From Caldimicrobium sp. (lineage in GTDB: Bacteria; Desulfobacterota; Thermodesulfobacteria; Thermodesulfobacteriales; Thermodesulfobacteriaceae), in contig JANXCE010000009.1 in NCBI GenBank assembly GCA_025059715.1, positions 1-63,767 on the forward strand: a stretch of DNA of 63,767 nucleotides. Reading direction: 5' to 3'. Numbering within the stretch: the stretch's first letter is position 1; every line of letters starts with the position of its first letter. Under the pieces are notes generated by a model, which worked only from the letters and a program-made list of their open reading frames with translations, was not told the origin of the DNA and ran no database searches. Below are positions 29,515 to 63,655 of this stretch, in pieces. The position numbers and the translations under genes were made by a program.

Positions 29515-29531
29515 TTGAAATTAATTTTCAG
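29515..29531. promoter_or_regulatory. Fur-type operator in front of fur
   Basis: TTGAAATTAATTTTCAG is an imperfect inverted repeat matching, at 14 of 16 defined positions, the TTGAAAATnATTTTCAA form I recall for delta-proteobacterial Fur boxes. It covers the predicted transcription start, fitting iron-dependent autoregulation. Binding is inferred. Confidence 0.6.
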
Positions 29532-29547
29532 AATTTAAAACAAAAAG

Positions 29548-29979
29548 ATGGAACATCTTATTGAGAAATTTAGGCAATTTATCAAGCAAAAGGGATTAAA
29601 ATATACTCCTGAGCGAGAGGAAATCCTCAGGGAGATCCTGTCTTTAGAAGATCATTTCGATGTGGAGTCCCTTTATCTTCAACTCAAGAAAAAGAATAGT
29701 AAAATTTCTAAAGCTTCTATATACAGAACCCTTCCCCTTTTAGTTGAAGGGGGTTATATTCAGGAAGTATACAAACAGGGTGGACATTCCCACTATGAGG
29801 TTACTCTTAATAAACAACCCCATCTTCATTTTATTTGTATCCAGTGTGGAGAGGTTAAAGAAGCTTTAGACCACAGACTAAACAATTTAATAGAAGAGTT
29901 TGAAAGGCAAAGTAAATACAGGTTTTTAACCTATCATTTAGAGATCTTTGGGCTTTGTCCTAACTGTCGGGAGGTTTAA
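29548..29979 (+). CDS. fur: Ferric uptake regulator (Fur family)
   Basis: This 143-aa protein has the Fur winged helix (LKYTPEREEILREIL, SIYRTLPLLVEGGYI) and the metal sites HSHYEV, HLHFICIQCGEVKE and a closing CPNC, so both cysteine pairs for structural zinc are present. Its place before feoA and feoB supports an iron role over Zur or PerR. A Fur-type operator lies on its promoter, suggesting autoregulation. Confidence 0.93.
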   Translation: MEHLIEKFRQFIKQKGLKYTPEREEILREILSLEDHFDVESLYLQLKKKNSKISKASIYRTLPLLVEGGYIQEVYKQGGHSHYEVTLNKQPHLHFICIQCGEVKEALDHRLNNLIEEFERQSKYRFLTYHLEIFGLCPNCREV

Positions 29980-29986
29980 TTTTGTT

Positions 29987-30346
29987 ATGACCCTTAAAGA
30001 GGCTCTTTGTGGTGATGTAGTGGTGATTAAGGCCTTCAGTTCGGAGGAGGATATTTTGAAGAAAGTTTCTGCCATGGGGCTCAGAAAGGGCAGTCACTTC
30101 GAGGTTTTGCGTCGTTGTGGTAGAAACCTTCTCCTCCGAAACGGAACCAATTGTTTAATAATTAGTGAAGAACTGGCGGATAAAATAGAAGTTGAATTAA
30201 AAAAAAGAGTGGATAGTCCCTGTGAAGAATTAAAATGCACCTTAAAAAGCCCTCCCTGTCCCTCAGAGGAAGCTTTTTCACAAAGGGGATTAAAGAAGTA
30301 TTCGGTCTGGCTTAAAAAATTTTTTCCATTTCTTAGAAAAAAATAA
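29987..30346 (+). CDS. feoA: FeoA-domain protein with Cys-containing C-terminal tail
   Basis: This 119-aa protein has the SH3-like FeoA fold pattern (LKEALCGDVVVIKAF, AMGLRKGSHFEVL, LLLRNGTNCLIISEELADKI) and an added C-terminal stretch with CEELKCTLKSPPC. FeoA is a cytoplasmic partner of the FeoB ferrous iron transporter. I chose ATG 29987, following GGGAGG; earlier in-frame ATG 29948 lies inside fur. It is 5 nt before feoB. Confidence 0.88.
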   Translation: MTLKEALCGDVVVIKAFSSEEDILKKVSAMGLRKGSHFEVLRRCGRNLLLRNGTNCLIISEELADKIEVELKKRVDSPCEELKCTLKSPPCPSEEAFSQRGLKKYSVWLKKFFPFLRKK

Positions 30347-30351
30347 CTTCT

Positions 30352-32283
30352 ATGCCCCTCATCCGAGTTCCCTTGGTTGGAAATCCCAATGTAGGTAAAA
30401 CGAGCATACTCAACTTTTTAGCAGGCACCAATCTCAAAATCGGTAATTGGCCCGGGGTTACGATTGAAAAGAGGGTTGGGAAGGTTTTCGTTCAGAATTA
30501 TGAAATAGAATTAATAGATCTTCCTGGTGTATACACCATAGAACAAGCAACTTCAGAAGATGAAGCTATTACCATAAATTTTCTAAGAAAGGGTGATTAT
30601 GAAGTAATTCTTCATGTAATAGAAAGTCCCCGCTTGGAGAGAGACCTTTATCTGACTACTCAACTCTTGGAATTAAATAAACCCATAATTGTTGCTCTTA
30701 ATATGAGTGATGAAGCGGAGGCCTTAGGTATTCACATTGACGAGAGACGATTCTCCGAGCTTTTTAACATCAAGGTCTTAAAAACAAATGGTAGAACTGG
30801 AGAGGGAGTGAAAGCTCTTCTTCCTGCGATAGTGGAATCCTTTGAAAGGAATTTAACACCCCACTTTGAGATTCTAAGTTTTGGACATCTTACAGAGGGT
30901 TCGGAGGAAGAGCGAAGGCTTGCTCTGGTAAAAGGAATCTCTGCGGAAATCACCAAACGAGACCTTTTCCCAAAAAAAACCCTTACCGAATCCTTTGATC
31001 GTTTCCTGCTACATCCTTTCTTCGGTTTTATCTTTCTCATCTTGATTTTATATTATACCTTCAAAATAGTGTTTGACTTATCCTCTCCTTTTGTAGACTT
31101 TATTGATGGATTTGTGCAGGATTTTCTTTCTCCAGCTACGCAGCATCTTCTACTCTATTTGGGAGCCCCTTTGCTAATTTCCCGCTTTTTCAGTGAAGCT
31201 CTTTTTGGAGGCCTTGGAGTGGTTTTGTCTTTTTTACCCCTAATATTTATTATTTATCTCTTTCTTACTCTATTAGAAACTTCTGGCTATTTACCTCGGG
31301 TTGCCTTTCTAATGGATCGATTTACCCATAGGGTGGGTCTTCATGGGCAAAGTGTGATTCCCTTGATGCTTGGCTTTGGTTGTAATGTTCCTGCAATTCT
31401 TGCTACAAGAACTCTGCAAGACAGATCCGATCGTCTACTTGTTATGGCCATGATTCCCTTTATGCCCTGCTCCGCAAGATTGGTTGTCTTCAGTTTTTTC
31501 TGTCTAATTTTTTTTGACAGACCTGCCTTACTTATCCTTGCTCTCTATTTGGTTGGCCTCTTTGTAGCGTTCTTAACCAGTGTCCTTCTTAGAAAGTCCT
31601 TTCTAAAAAAACAACTTGCCCATTTTGTCATGGACCTTCCCCCTTACCGTCTTCCTTCTATTAGAGTTGTCTGGAGTATTGTTCTCTTACATGTTAAAAG
31701 CTTTATAGTGCGAGCAGGAACAGTAATTTTTGCCATATCTGTTGCAATCTGGTTAATTTTAAATCTTCCTCCCCAAGTTCAGAACCTTGAAGAGAGCTAC
31801 GGAGGAAAGCTTGGAAAGATTATAGCACCCCTTTTTGAACCTCTTGGTTTAGGAGATTGGAGAATTGCAACCTCCCTAATACCTGCTTTTTTAGCCCGTG
31901 AGGCCATTCTGAGTAATCTTGCTGTGATCTTAAAGGCGCAGGAGCCCAAGGAAGAGACCTTTGACTTTGAAATGGCTCTAAAGGCCCAGGGTGAAAAACT
32001 GCTCCTTTCCTTTAAAGAAGCTCTCTTTTCTCTATCTTCCCTTTATCCTAAATCCCTGGAAGTTGGGACCGATGATGGTCTTCTGCGAGGGGAGATTAAG
32101 AAGGTCTTTTCTTCTGCCTCCGCTCTATCTTTTCTTTTTTTTGTTTTGATCTATAATTCCTGTGTCGCCACCTTTGTTACTATGTGGAGAGAGGGCTCAA
32201 AGAGTTTTGCCCTTCTCTTCCTGGGCTATAGTTTTGCTCTTGCCTGGACCTTCTCTTTCCTAATTTACACCTTTTTCTCTTAA
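30352..32283 (+). CDS. feoB: Ferrous iron transporter FeoB
   Basis: This 643-aa protein has an N-terminal GTPase domain (GNPNVGKTS at 11-19, DLPGVY, NMSDEA) and a polytopic C-terminal half with the paired Gate regions, including LGFGCNVPAILATRTL and MIPFMPCSARL. It imports Fe(II) across the inner membrane. It is shorter than the 770-aa E. coli form but within the family range. Regulation by the Fur operator upstream of the operon is likely. Confidence 0.97.
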   Translation: MPLIRVPLVGNPNVGKTSILNFLAGTNLKIGNWPGVTIEKRVGKVFVQNYEIELIDLPGVYTIEQATSEDEAITINFLRKGDYEVILHVIESPRLERDLYLTTQLLELNKPIIVALNMSDEAEALGIHIDERRFSELFNIKVLKTNGRTGEGVKALLPAIVESFERNLTPHFEILSFGHLTEGSEEERRLALVKGISAEITKRDLFPKKTLTESFDRFLLHPFFGFIFLILILYYTFKIVFDLSSPFVDFIDGFVQDFLSPATQHLLLYLGAPLLISRFFSEALFGGLGVVLSFLPLIFIIYLFLTLLETSGYLPRVAFLMDRFTHRVGLHGQSVIPLMLGFGCNVPAILATRTLQDRSDRLLVMAMIPFMPCSARLVVFSFFCLIFFDRPALLILALYLVGLFVAFLTSVLLRKSFLKKQLAHFVMDLPPYRLPSIRVVWSIVLLHVKSFIVRAGTVIFAISVAIWLILNLPPQVQNLEESYGGKLGKIIAPLFEPLGLGDWRIATSLIPAFLAREAILSNLAVILKAQEPKEETFDFEMALKAQGEKLLLSFKEALFSLSSLYPKSLEVGTDDGLLRGEIKKVFSSASALSFLFFVLIYNSCVATFVTMWREGSKSFALLFLGYSFALAWTFSFLIYTFFS

Positions 32284-60973: not shown

Positions 60974-61188
60974 ATACAAAAGGTAATTTATCTCAGACCC
61001 CTTTAAAAAGAGGAGTCAGTAAAAAGACAAGCCTGCTATCCAAGTTCAGGTTTATGGGTAAGCGTTTTTTTACCGAAAATATAAACCCTTTATTTGGATT
61101 TGACCTGAAGTTCTTGTTTACACAGGTTATTAGAACCCTAAGCAAGGGAGATACGTATTCTTTAAATGATGCCATATCAAAAGACAAT

Positions 61189-61443
61189 TCATATCCTCGA
61201 TGTCTTGGAAATTTCAAGCATCCACTCCTCCACTACAATGGCTTCAACCTCACTTTTGCGTAAAGAAAGAGAGTAACCTTTACTAGTGATCTCTATGGGG
61301 TCTCCAAGAGGGGCCGTTTTCTCCGCACGGATAATTTCCCCGGGTAAAGCGCCCATTTCTTGTAATCTTTTTTTAAAGGAACCTGTTGAGCTTATAGCTA
61401 CTATCCTTGCTATGGCACCTGGTTTTAACTCTGAAAGTCTCAT
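61189..61443 (-). CDS. FeoA-domain protein
   Basis: This 84-aa protein is a bare FeoA domain: LSELKPGAIARIVAI, RLQEMGALPGEIIRAEKTAPLGDPIEI in pieces, LSLRKSEVEAIVV. In contrast to the feoA at 29987 it is far from feoB and stands last in the Fur-type operon, 26 nt after the HD-GYP gene. It could be a diffusible FeoB partner or a ligand for the FeoA-GGDEF protein. Confidence 0.88.
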   Translation of the reverse strand: MRLSELKPGAIARIVAISSTGSFKKRLQEMGALPGEIIRAEKTAPLGDPIEITSKGYSLSLRKSEVEAIVVEEWMLEISKTSRI

Positions 61444-61469: not shown

Positions 61470-62141
61470 TTAAGAAACTAACCCCATAGCCCAGTTTGTT
61501 ATTTCTTCATAAATATTGACGAAGATGCCAACAAGCATAGGATCAAATTGAGTGCCTGCTCCTTTTTTAATCTCCTCAAGGGCTTCATCAAAGCTTAAAG
61601 GTTTTCTATAAGGTCTTTCACAAACCATAGCAGAAAATGCATCTGCAATAGAGATAATCCGTGCACCCAAGGGAATTTCTTCACCTTTAAGACCAAAGGG
61701 ATATCCCTTCCCATCCCATCTCTCATGATGATATAAAATCATTTCTAAGACTCCACCTTGGCCCTGGAAAAGCTTAACAGGACTAAGAAGGTCAAATCCA
61801 ATCTTTGGATGAGATTTTATTAATTCCCATTCTTGCTTATCCAGAGGACCTGGTTTTATTAAAATTTTTTTGGGAAGAGTCAATTTACCAACATCGTGTA
61901 GATGTCCTGCTAAGTGGATAAAATCGCAGGCCTTAGCAGGAAGTCCTATTCTTAAAGCTATTATATAACTTACAACTGCTACAATTTCTGAATGATTTTT
62001 AGTATACTTATCTATATTTTCAATGAGCTTTGTAAAAACTTCTATCACCTGATGGACCGTAACCACAATAGAAGTACATTTTTGAATTTCACAAATCCAG
62101 GGTTCGTTTAACACATTTATCAAGCAAACCCTATTTCTCAT
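61470..62141 (-). CDS. HD-GYP domain cyclic-di-GMP phosphodiesterase
   Basis: This 223-aa protein has a complete HD-GYP core: HLHDVGKLTLPKKIL, HHERWDGKGYPFGLKG, and ISIADAFSAM with PYRK. The roughly 60-residue N-terminal region contains no known sensor. I chose ATG 62141, preceded by AGGAGGTGAAATC. It overlaps no gene and stands just after the FeoA-GGDEF gene (stop 62156, so start and stop are 14 nt apart). It is predicted to hydrolyse the product of that protein. Confidence 0.93.
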   Translation of the reverse strand: MRNRVCLINVLNEPWICEIQKCTSIVVTVHQVIEVFTKLIENIDKYTKNHSEIVAVVSYIIALRIGLPAKACDFIHLAGHLHDVGKLTLPKKILIKPGPLDKQEWELIKSHPKIGFDLLSPVKLFQGQGGVLEMILYHHERWDGKGYPFGLKGEEIPLGARIISIADAFSAMVCERPYRKPLSFDEALEEIKKGAGTQFDPMLVGIFVNIYEEITNWAMGLVS

Positions 62142-62155
62142 GATTTCACCTCCTA

Positions 62156-62911
62156 TTAATAACAACAGACCACTTTGTTCTTACCAGTTTTTTTAGCTTG
62201 ATAAAGAGCATCATCTGCTTCTTTTAACAAGACTTCCATTGGTCTAAGAGGTGGAACATCGTAAACCCCAAAACTCAAGGTTACTTTGAAGAGTTTACCA
62301 TCATATTCTATGTCCTTTTCAGAAATAGCCCTTCTTATGCGGTCACATATTCTGAAAGCTAAATCAAGAGTTGTCCTTTTAAAGAGTAATAAAAACTCTT
62401 CTCCTCCCCATCGCACCACTAAGTCGCTTTTCCTTAAGTTATTTTGCAAAATCCTTGAGACCTCCTTTAAAACTAAATCTCCGCAGAGGTGACCATAGCT
62501 ATCGTTGATAGCTTTGAAATTATCAATATCAGCAAGACCTATGGAAACAGGTGGTTGAACTAAAGCTTTCTTAATTATTTCCTCAGCGTAGTCCCTTCTT
62601 AAACATCCTGTTAATAAATCGTAGGCATATTTTTCTTTTAGAGCTAAGTAGCGATTTACAAGGGGTTTAACTAAAATTGAATTTATCAGCTCATTATCAA
62701 GGGCAATTAAACTCTCATTAAGTTTAAGAAGAAACTTGGTCCCCGTAAAATCCTTTCCGAAAACCTCTACTATAGTTCCCTCCTTTAAACCAAGATTGCG
62801 AAGTTGTTTGATGAAGGGAGTTTCCTTGGTAAAATAAATGATTTCCACCTTTTCTCCAGGTGGGATTAGTTTAAGAGAATAAACGGTTAATTTATTATTC
62901 GAGAGTTTCAT
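62156..62911 (-). CDS. FeoA-GGDEF fusion, predicted diguanylate cyclase
   Basis: This 251-aa protein joins an N-terminal FeoA-like SH3 domain (residues about 8-85, FIKQLRNLGLKEGTIVEVF, KLNESLIALDNELINSILV) to a GGDEF domain (about 95-251) with the active motif RWGGEEFLLLF. An inhibitory I-site RKSD stands exactly five residues before GGEEF. Key residues DIDNFKAIND and GHLCGD are present, so it should make cyclic di-GMP from GTP. GGAGG precedes the ATG. I know of no standard description of this domain pair. Confidence 0.9.
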   Translation of the reverse strand: MKLSNNKLTVYSLKLIPPGEKVEIIYFTKETPFIKQLRNLGLKEGTIVEVFGKDFTGTKFLLKLNESLIALDNELINSILVKPLVNRYLALKEKYAYDLLTGCLRRDYAEEIIKKALVQPPVSIGLADIDNFKAINDSYGHLCGDLVLKEVSRILQNNLRKSDLVVRWGGEEFLLLFKRTTLDLAFRICDRIRRAISEKDIEYDGKLFKVTLSFGVYDVPPLRPMEVLLKEADDALYQAKKTGKNKVVCCY

Positions 62912-62937: not shown

Positions 62938-63234
62938 TTAAAATTTATTAACTAAAATCTTCATAGCAAGTCCCCGACTTATGGCAATTTGGGTGTTTTC
63001 TAAGCTTACAAGCAAAGGATGATCTGGTTGATTGAGCTTTACTTCAATTACCTGACCTACCTTAAGACCAAAGTTCTTCACATGAGCTTCTGTTTGGCCT
63101 TTATTTTTTTTACAAAAGAGACAACCTCCTTCACAAGGGTTCATCTCCTCTGAAGTTAAAAAATCTACCTCCAAATTATTGATTTTTTTAATAATAGCCT
63201 TTTCACCCTCATTTAGTAAAGCCAAGGGTATCAT
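62938..63234 (-). CDS. FeoA-like protein with a CX3CX2C insertion
   Basis: This 98-aa protein reads as a FeoA fold (MIPLALLNEGEKAIIKKI, HVKNFGLKVGQVIEV, LLVSLENTQIAISRGLAMKIL) interrupted after about 30 residues by PCEGGCLFCKKNKGQ. The CX3CX2C group could hold an Fe-S cluster or other metal. I chose ATG 63234 after GGAGGGA. It is 16 nt after the DUF2325 gene. Confidence 0.82.
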   Translation of the reverse strand: MIPLALLNEGEKAIIKKINNLEVDFLTSEEMNPCEGGCLFCKKNKGQTEAHVKNFGLKVGQVIEVKLNQPDHPLLVSLENTQIAISRGLAMKILVNKF

Positions 63235-63250: not shown

Positions 63251-63564
63251 TTAATTATGAATTTCATTCTCAATTATTGGACAAAAAATTTTTGAATTAA
63301 TAATTTCTTCAAGAAGCTTTTTGATTTGACATGTACCTCCCTGCTTACAAAAAAGACATTTCTTAGTTCCCAATTTTTTGGCAATTTTTACCATTTCATG
63401 AGAAACAAGCCTGGTTAAAACCAAAATAAAATCTGCACAAGCTACCATATCCTCCAGATTTTGAGAGGGTTTATTTATAAACTTTAGATTTATTCCCTTA
63501 TCCTTGGCAAAGTCTTTCAGAGGAGCTTCAAGTCTATCATGGCCCCTAAAATTACCACGGTCAT
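63251..63564 (-). pseudogene. DUF2325-like protein, frameshifted near its start
   Basis: From ATG 63564 the frame reads MTVVILG and then leaves the family. One added G in the run at 63543-63546 would give LGGHDRLEAPLKDFAKDKG and on through DMVACADFILVLTRLVSHEM and KKCLFCKQGGTC to a stop at 63251, a normal 104-aa DUF2325 protein. The CX2CX4C group lies near the end. It is the first gene behind the Fur-type promoter. Because the remainder is well preserved, this may be a slippery G run or a sequencing error. Confidence 0.75.
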
Positions 63565-63638: not shown

Positions 63639-63655
63639 TTGAAATTCAATTTCAA
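63639..63655. promoter_or_regulatory. Fur-type operator of the FeoA/c-di-GMP operon
   Basis: TTGAAATTCAATTTCAA is a perfect 7-3-7 inverted repeat. Extra TTTCAA hexamers follow at once, giving a tandem-hexamer array as in extended Fur boxes. It resembles the site at 29515 before fur and lies just downstream of the -10. Confidence 0.6.

Follow-up and report, generated by a model that had tools for sequence, protein, structure and literature searches.

A FeoA-GGDEF fusion protein encoded beside an HD-GYP gene in a feo operon of Thermodesulfobacteriaceae

The role of FeoA is a long-standing open question. FeoA is reported to bind the G domain of FeoB in a nucleotide-dependent manner (PMC8980893), and FeoA domains also act inside DtxR-type regulators (PMC4805248). 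Because the C-terminal FeoA/SH3 domain of DtxR and MntR is known (PMC4805248), a regulatory role of this fold is not new. A survey of the FeoA architectures in InterPro left out fusions to non-Feo domains and leaves GGDEF unmentioned (PMC8980893), and the c-di-GMP sensor domains in a census of 2022 include iron- and zinc-linked ones and no FeoA (PMC8846402). The Fur regulon of Desulfovibrio lists genes for GGDEF and HD-domain proteins (PMC545781). No published description of a FeoA-GGDEF architecture was found in the open-licence literature on FeoA with GGDEF, c-di-GMP or HD-GYP, and InterPro may well have an entry for it.

The DNA analyzed here, referred to as the window, is a stretch of 63,767 nucleotides from Caldimicrobium sp. 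(contig JANXCE010000009.1), and it encodes a protein in which a FeoA domain is followed by a GGDEF domain (Table 1). As proposed in the first-pass annotation, the two domains are fused. They lie in one open reading frame encoding 251 residues, preceded by the ribosome-binding site ggaggtgtccatATG, and both exceed their Pfam cut-offs, FeoA (PF04023, residues 12-83) with 39.8 bits against 23 (E 4.7e-10) and GGDEF (PF00990, residues 96-246) with 129.5 bits against 23.8. The catalytic GGEEF motif and the RxxD I-site, also pointed out in that annotation, are found as R160-K-S-D163-LVVRW-GGEEF (169-173), in which RxxD stands five residues before GGEEF, the canonical spacing. The metal and substrate residues of the GGDEF domain (DIDNF and NDSYGHLCGD) are intact as well. 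With these motifs intact, a degenerate GGDEF domain is ruled out for the window protein. The protein begins with its FeoA domain, and neither the DNA-binding nor the dimerisation domain of DtxR was detected in it by Pfam. The FeoA domain lacks the PLGDP loop of canonical FeoA; residues 1-84 contain neither cysteine nor histidine, and no position with either residue is shared by all orthologues. Judging from its motifs, the fusion is apparently an active diguanylate cyclase with FeoA in the sensor position.

Table 1. Locations of the fusion gene, its operon neighbours and related features (window positions unless a locus is named)
Feature	Location	Strand	Basis or remark
Unrelated sequence replacing feoB	60993..61226	-	GmrSD-type remnant 61129-61217; longer relative on contig C1
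Canonical FeoA (PLGDP type)	61189..61443	-	Pfam 9.6e-20
Stand-alone HD-GYP phosphodiesterase (predicted)	61470..62141	-	Pfam HD_5 4e-38; likely start 62141, RBS aggaggtgaaatc
FeoA-GGDEF protein	62156..62911	-	251 aa: FeoA 12-83, short helix 87-96, GGDEF 96-246
FeoA (SH3-like) domain of the fusion	62663..62878	-	Pfam, AF2, PDB fold matches
Stand-alone FeoA with Cys-rich insertion NPCEGGCLFCKK	62938..63234	-	Pfam 8.8e-12; alignment
DUF2325, first operon gene	63251..63564	-	One frameshift, G run near 63538-63543
Fur-box-like palindrome TTGAAATTGAATTTCAA (putative), upstream of operon	63639..63655	-	Fur consensus match
Second feo locus, fur-feoA-feoB	29548-32283 (locus 29515-32283)	+	Fur-box-like TTGAAATTAATTTTCAG upstream
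Divergent FeoA-GGDEF of G181	L161 3814-4569	-	Active site degenerate (DDNDEF)

The predicted structure is consistent with these assignments. In AlphaFold models (mean pLDDT 85 for the whole fusion and 79 for the N-terminal domain modelled alone), a strand, a helix and four strands (beta-alpha-beta4, residues 21-83) are followed by a helix (87-96) and the GGDEF fold; with a pTM of only 0.61, the full model does not fix the relative orientation of the domains. Within residues 1-90, for which a FeoA-like SH3 fold had been anticipated, the model does match FeoA, in both crystal and NMR structures: the best Foldseek hits of the N-terminal domain in the PDB are FeoA proteins, with an E-value of 5.8e-5 and a TM-score by query of 0.69-0.71 for 3e19, and the FeoA of C. 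tepidum (2k5f) is superposed with a VIA Z of 12.6 and an rmsd of 1.7 over 80 residues. 3e19 was also found by sequence, with an N-terminal profile searched against the PDB (E 9e-4). The same domain matches the SH3 domains of DtxR, IdeR and ScaR, and the score of the IdeR SH3 domain (VIA Z 13.0) is tied with that of FeoA. The whole fusion model matches the GGDEF domains of PleD, SiaD and DgcR.

The fusion is real and inherited, and it stands in a telling genomic context. It is present in eight of the 30 genomes of the family, that of the window included; the family orthologues are 44-50% identical to the window protein. Because orthologues are found in independent genomes, three of which are single contigs, a fusion produced by chance or by assembly is ruled out. 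In two genomes the gene is broken: in G021 a frameshift inside the GGDEF motif splits it, and in G029 a frameshift falls late in the GGDEF domain. The cyclase motifs and the I-site are otherwise intact in the family, the exceptions being one GGEEI variant, one frameshift located after the motif and the split gene of G021. Across the phylum, a profile run against 395 genomes yielded one further fusion only, in G181, a member of another family, whose degenerate GGDEF domain is possibly a c-di-GMP- or GTP-binding sensor instead of an enzyme. FeoA and GGDEF both exceed their Pfam cut-offs in all four fusions scanned, this divergent one included; besides the window protein, the FeoA scores are 54.0 and 49.9 bits in two orthologues and 33.6 bits in G181 (cut-off 23). 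The profile search of the 46 genomes of the class of G181, whose frames were read in part, gave no other match extending beyond FeoA into GGDEF, and no match extended past the FeoA domain in the 11 remaining genomes of the order of the window, outside its family. When the contigs of the window's own genome were scanned with the whole fusion, none of the nine long-coverage GGDEF matches read carried FeoA, and the N-terminal half of the fusion had no match among plasmids. The long FeoA frames read elsewhere in the phylum were rejected as fusions of this type, being DtxR-FeoA or Fur-FeoA proteins. Apparent Fur-family regulators with one or two C-terminal FeoA domains, which may be little described, were seen at L125 (G402), L135 (G331) and L143 (G168).

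In a tree with a short alignment and modest support, the FeoA domains of the family fusions form a group of their own, separate from the adjacent canonical FeoA, and that of G181 is placed elsewhere. On this evidence the FeoA domain of the fusion is a distinct subtype, and a recent joining of the neighbouring feoA with a cyclase is not supported. The suggestion that FeoA takes the place of the usual cyclase sensor is supported, and the architecture is conserved by descent; the further suggestion of the first-pass annotation, that the domain senses a ligand or partner, is a hypothesis.

The operon with the fusion is kept in three genera (g1, g3 and g6), with the order DUF2325, Cys-rich FeoA, FeoA-GGDEF, HD-GYP, canonical FeoA and FeoB, usually followed by a porin that scored as OprB-like in the copy tested. 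In the variant of G003, the Cys-rich FeoA is placed after HD-GYP, and FeoB has no porin behind it. The HD-GYP gene, the two stand-alone feoA genes and the DUF2325 gene of this operon were passed over in the first-pass annotation. The HD-GYP motifs HDVGK and HHERWDGKGYP are intact in the window and conserved in the eight orthologues aligned. An HD-GYP orthologue occurs in all eight fusion genomes of the family and in only one other family genome, G016, whose contig begins inside the gene; the two predicted enzymes therefore travel as a pair. The insertion of the Cys-rich FeoA reads CEGGCLFC in the window and C.GG...C in most other relatives, and it may form a metal or Fe-S site; the operon's actual iron sensor is perhaps this protein. 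The cluster of G181 consists of DUF2325, an 83-residue protein, FeoA-GGDEF, Cys-FeoA and a porin-like gene, stands beside a divergent fur gene and contains no HD-GYP gene. A second DUF2325 and Cys-FeoA pair without a cyclase is located on contig C39 (L112, 3256-3876), near genes resembling those of TonB-dependent receptors and ExbB/ExbD. Since the window's genome also encodes ten further GGDEF proteins and, likewise above the cut-off, three PilZ-type proteins, a c-di-GMP network exists in it.

Fur control of the operon is suggested by the palindrome TTGAAATTGAATTTCAA, which agrees with the delta-proteobacterial Fur consensus (PMC545781) at 14 of 16 specified positions. A second, partial match with an offset of 6 bases overlaps it, and overlapping shifted Fur matches have been described for Desulfovibrio (PMC545781). 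In dinucleotide shuffles, p was approximately 0.02 for the window and 0.046 for G003, and for G029, which has the identical site, the count was 0 of 500. Fur-box-like sites in the six other operon upstream regions tested had no shuffle support.

The feoA-feoB pair follows in every copy of the operon but that of the window, where the last feoA leads into what resembles part of a GmrSD-type gene. With feoB missing downstream, the last codons of the canonical FeoA run into this unrelated sequence, and no feoB remnant was found beyond them. The contig of G016 (L177, G016:C4, 1-736) shares 725 bases with the window at 97.9% identity, ending exactly at 61227, and continues past this breakpoint into a full feoB, which places the loss of feoB on the side of the window. 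G016 is assigned to another genus, in which the remaining HD-GYP copies share only about 60% identity with that of the window, and the near-identity therefore points to a recent exchange of the operon or to a misbinned contig. An intact feoA-feoB-porin set is located on contig C2 of the window's genome.

The reading preferred here, given a probability of roughly one half, is that the fusion is a diguanylate cyclase in which FeoA serves as a regulatory module for protein interaction or dimerisation, and that with the HD-GYP protein it makes up a pair for c-di-GMP synthesis and degradation belonging to the feo operon. HD-GYP enzymes form a metal-dependent class. Under iron shortage, relief of Fur repression would raise both enzymes together with the FeoA/FeoB importer, and the activity of the cyclase would be set by its FeoA domain, either through its own pairing or through docking to a Feo component such as the G domain of FeoB or another FeoA. 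When iron is available, the HD-GYP enzyme would remove c-di-GMP. The arrangement suggests a coupling of c-di-GMP to iron supply in these bacteria; this mechanism is offered as a proposal. A role in protein interaction or dimerisation is favoured by the binding of FeoA to the FeoB G domain and by its presence inside DtxR-type regulators, and the lack of cysteine and histidine in the first 84 residues, with none conserved in the family, makes a classical transition-metal or Fe(II) site unlikely. Partner binding or dimerisation thus seems more plausible than direct binding of Fe(II). As the FeoA domain of the fusion is a distinct subtype, its binding to FeoB cannot be assumed. Presence in eight of 30 genomes, the frameshifts of G021 and G029, the degenerate domain of G181 and the loss of feoB in the window indicate that the module is dispensable.

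Several other explanations bear on the same observations. The FeoA domain may be a structural dimerisation module only, the cyclase being constitutive and limited by its I-site and the link to iron being purely transcriptional through Fur; this explanation is possible, and it draws on the dimerisation that GGDEF enzymes require, the short linker helix of about 10 residues, the conserved I-site and a fold as close to the SH3 domain of the dimeric DtxR/IdeR regulators as to FeoA, but the retention of a specific FeoA subtype in a feo operon over about 45-50% protein identity suggests more than a generic dimeriser. A reading held to be rather doubtful is that the FeoA domain responds to the nucleotide or transport state of FeoB, the cyclase reporting the flux of Fe(II) import as c-di-GMP and the HD-GYP enzyme resetting the signal; if true, the transporter would be the sensor of a second-messenger switch. 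The operon in the window's genome could also be a decaying remnant without function, as part of another gene stands in the place of feoB, DUF2325 is frameshifted and other copies of the operon are broken too. This is unlikely, because FeoA-GGDEF, HD-GYP and Cys-FeoA have unbroken reading frames and retain their ribosome-binding sites and every catalytic motif, and because the one-base frameshift of DUF2325, either real or an assembly error, falls near the end of a contig in a draft assembly.

Direct binding of Fe(II) or another metal, which would make the protein a metal-sensing cyclase comparable in principle to the zinc-sensing DgcZ, fits the feo operon setting, the six acidic residues invariant among the family orthologues (E20, E23, E44, E49, D54 and E66), the zinc in one FeoA structure (3mhx, by its title) and the participation of DtxR-type SH3 domains in the metal response; against the absence of cysteine and histidine noted above, it is judged quite improbable. 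The relationship might also run in the reverse direction, with locally made c-di-GMP controlling the importer: FeoA would tether the cyclase to FeoB, and c-di-GMP or GTP use at the membrane would tune Fe(II) transport. Importer, cyclase and phosphodiesterase are co-encoded, and a guanine nucleotide governs the interaction of FeoA with FeoB (PMC8980893), but no c-di-GMP-binding domain was identified in the FeoA, DUF2325 or HD-GYP genes of the operon, and the module of the window no longer adjoins feoB, though FeoB is encoded elsewhere in the genome; little credence is given to this direction.

With this fusion, FeoA joins the domains that occupy the sensor position in c-di-GMP enzymes. Its natural linkage to an enzyme gives a direct handle on the function of FeoA, with c-di-GMP as an easy readout, since any ligand, metal or Feo partner recognized by the FeoA domain should alter cyclase activity. 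One feo operon also codes for the predicted maker of c-di-GMP together with its predicted breaker, and at the genetic level this links ferrous-iron uptake directly to lifestyle signalling.

The FeoA domain of the window shares the SH3-like fold, the Pfam family PF04023 and the location in a feo operon with FeoA that stands alone or is fused to the FeoB G domain, as in FeoAB of B. fragilis, but its fusion partner is GGDEF and not FeoB, its PLGDP loop is missing, and it stands apart in the tree. DtxR, MntR and IdeR are iron or manganese regulators that likewise contain a FeoA-like domain, although their output is DNA binding and their FeoA/SH3 domain is C-terminal, whereas the fusion has an N-terminal FeoA domain and a predicted c-di-GMP output. 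DgcZ, with its zinc-sensing CZB domain, and the hemerythrin-GGDEF and hemerythrin-HD-GYP proteins resemble the fusion in having a metal-related N-terminal domain, which in them controls c-di-GMP turnover, but they have defined metal ligands, whereas the FeoA domain of the fusion has no conserved cysteine or histidine. In Desulfovibrio, gdp (GGDEF) and hdd (HD-domain) are predicted to be under Fur, a precedent for GGDEF and HD genes in a Fur regulon, but they are listed as separate Fur-regulated genes that are not part of a feo operon, FeoA not being stated for gdp (PMC545781). Whereas SisP of Stenotrophomonas maltophilia, an Fe(II)-stimulated phosphodiesterase, relies on PAS/PAC sensors and an EAL domain and has no Feo component, it likewise links ferrous iron to c-di-GMP (PMC9600515).
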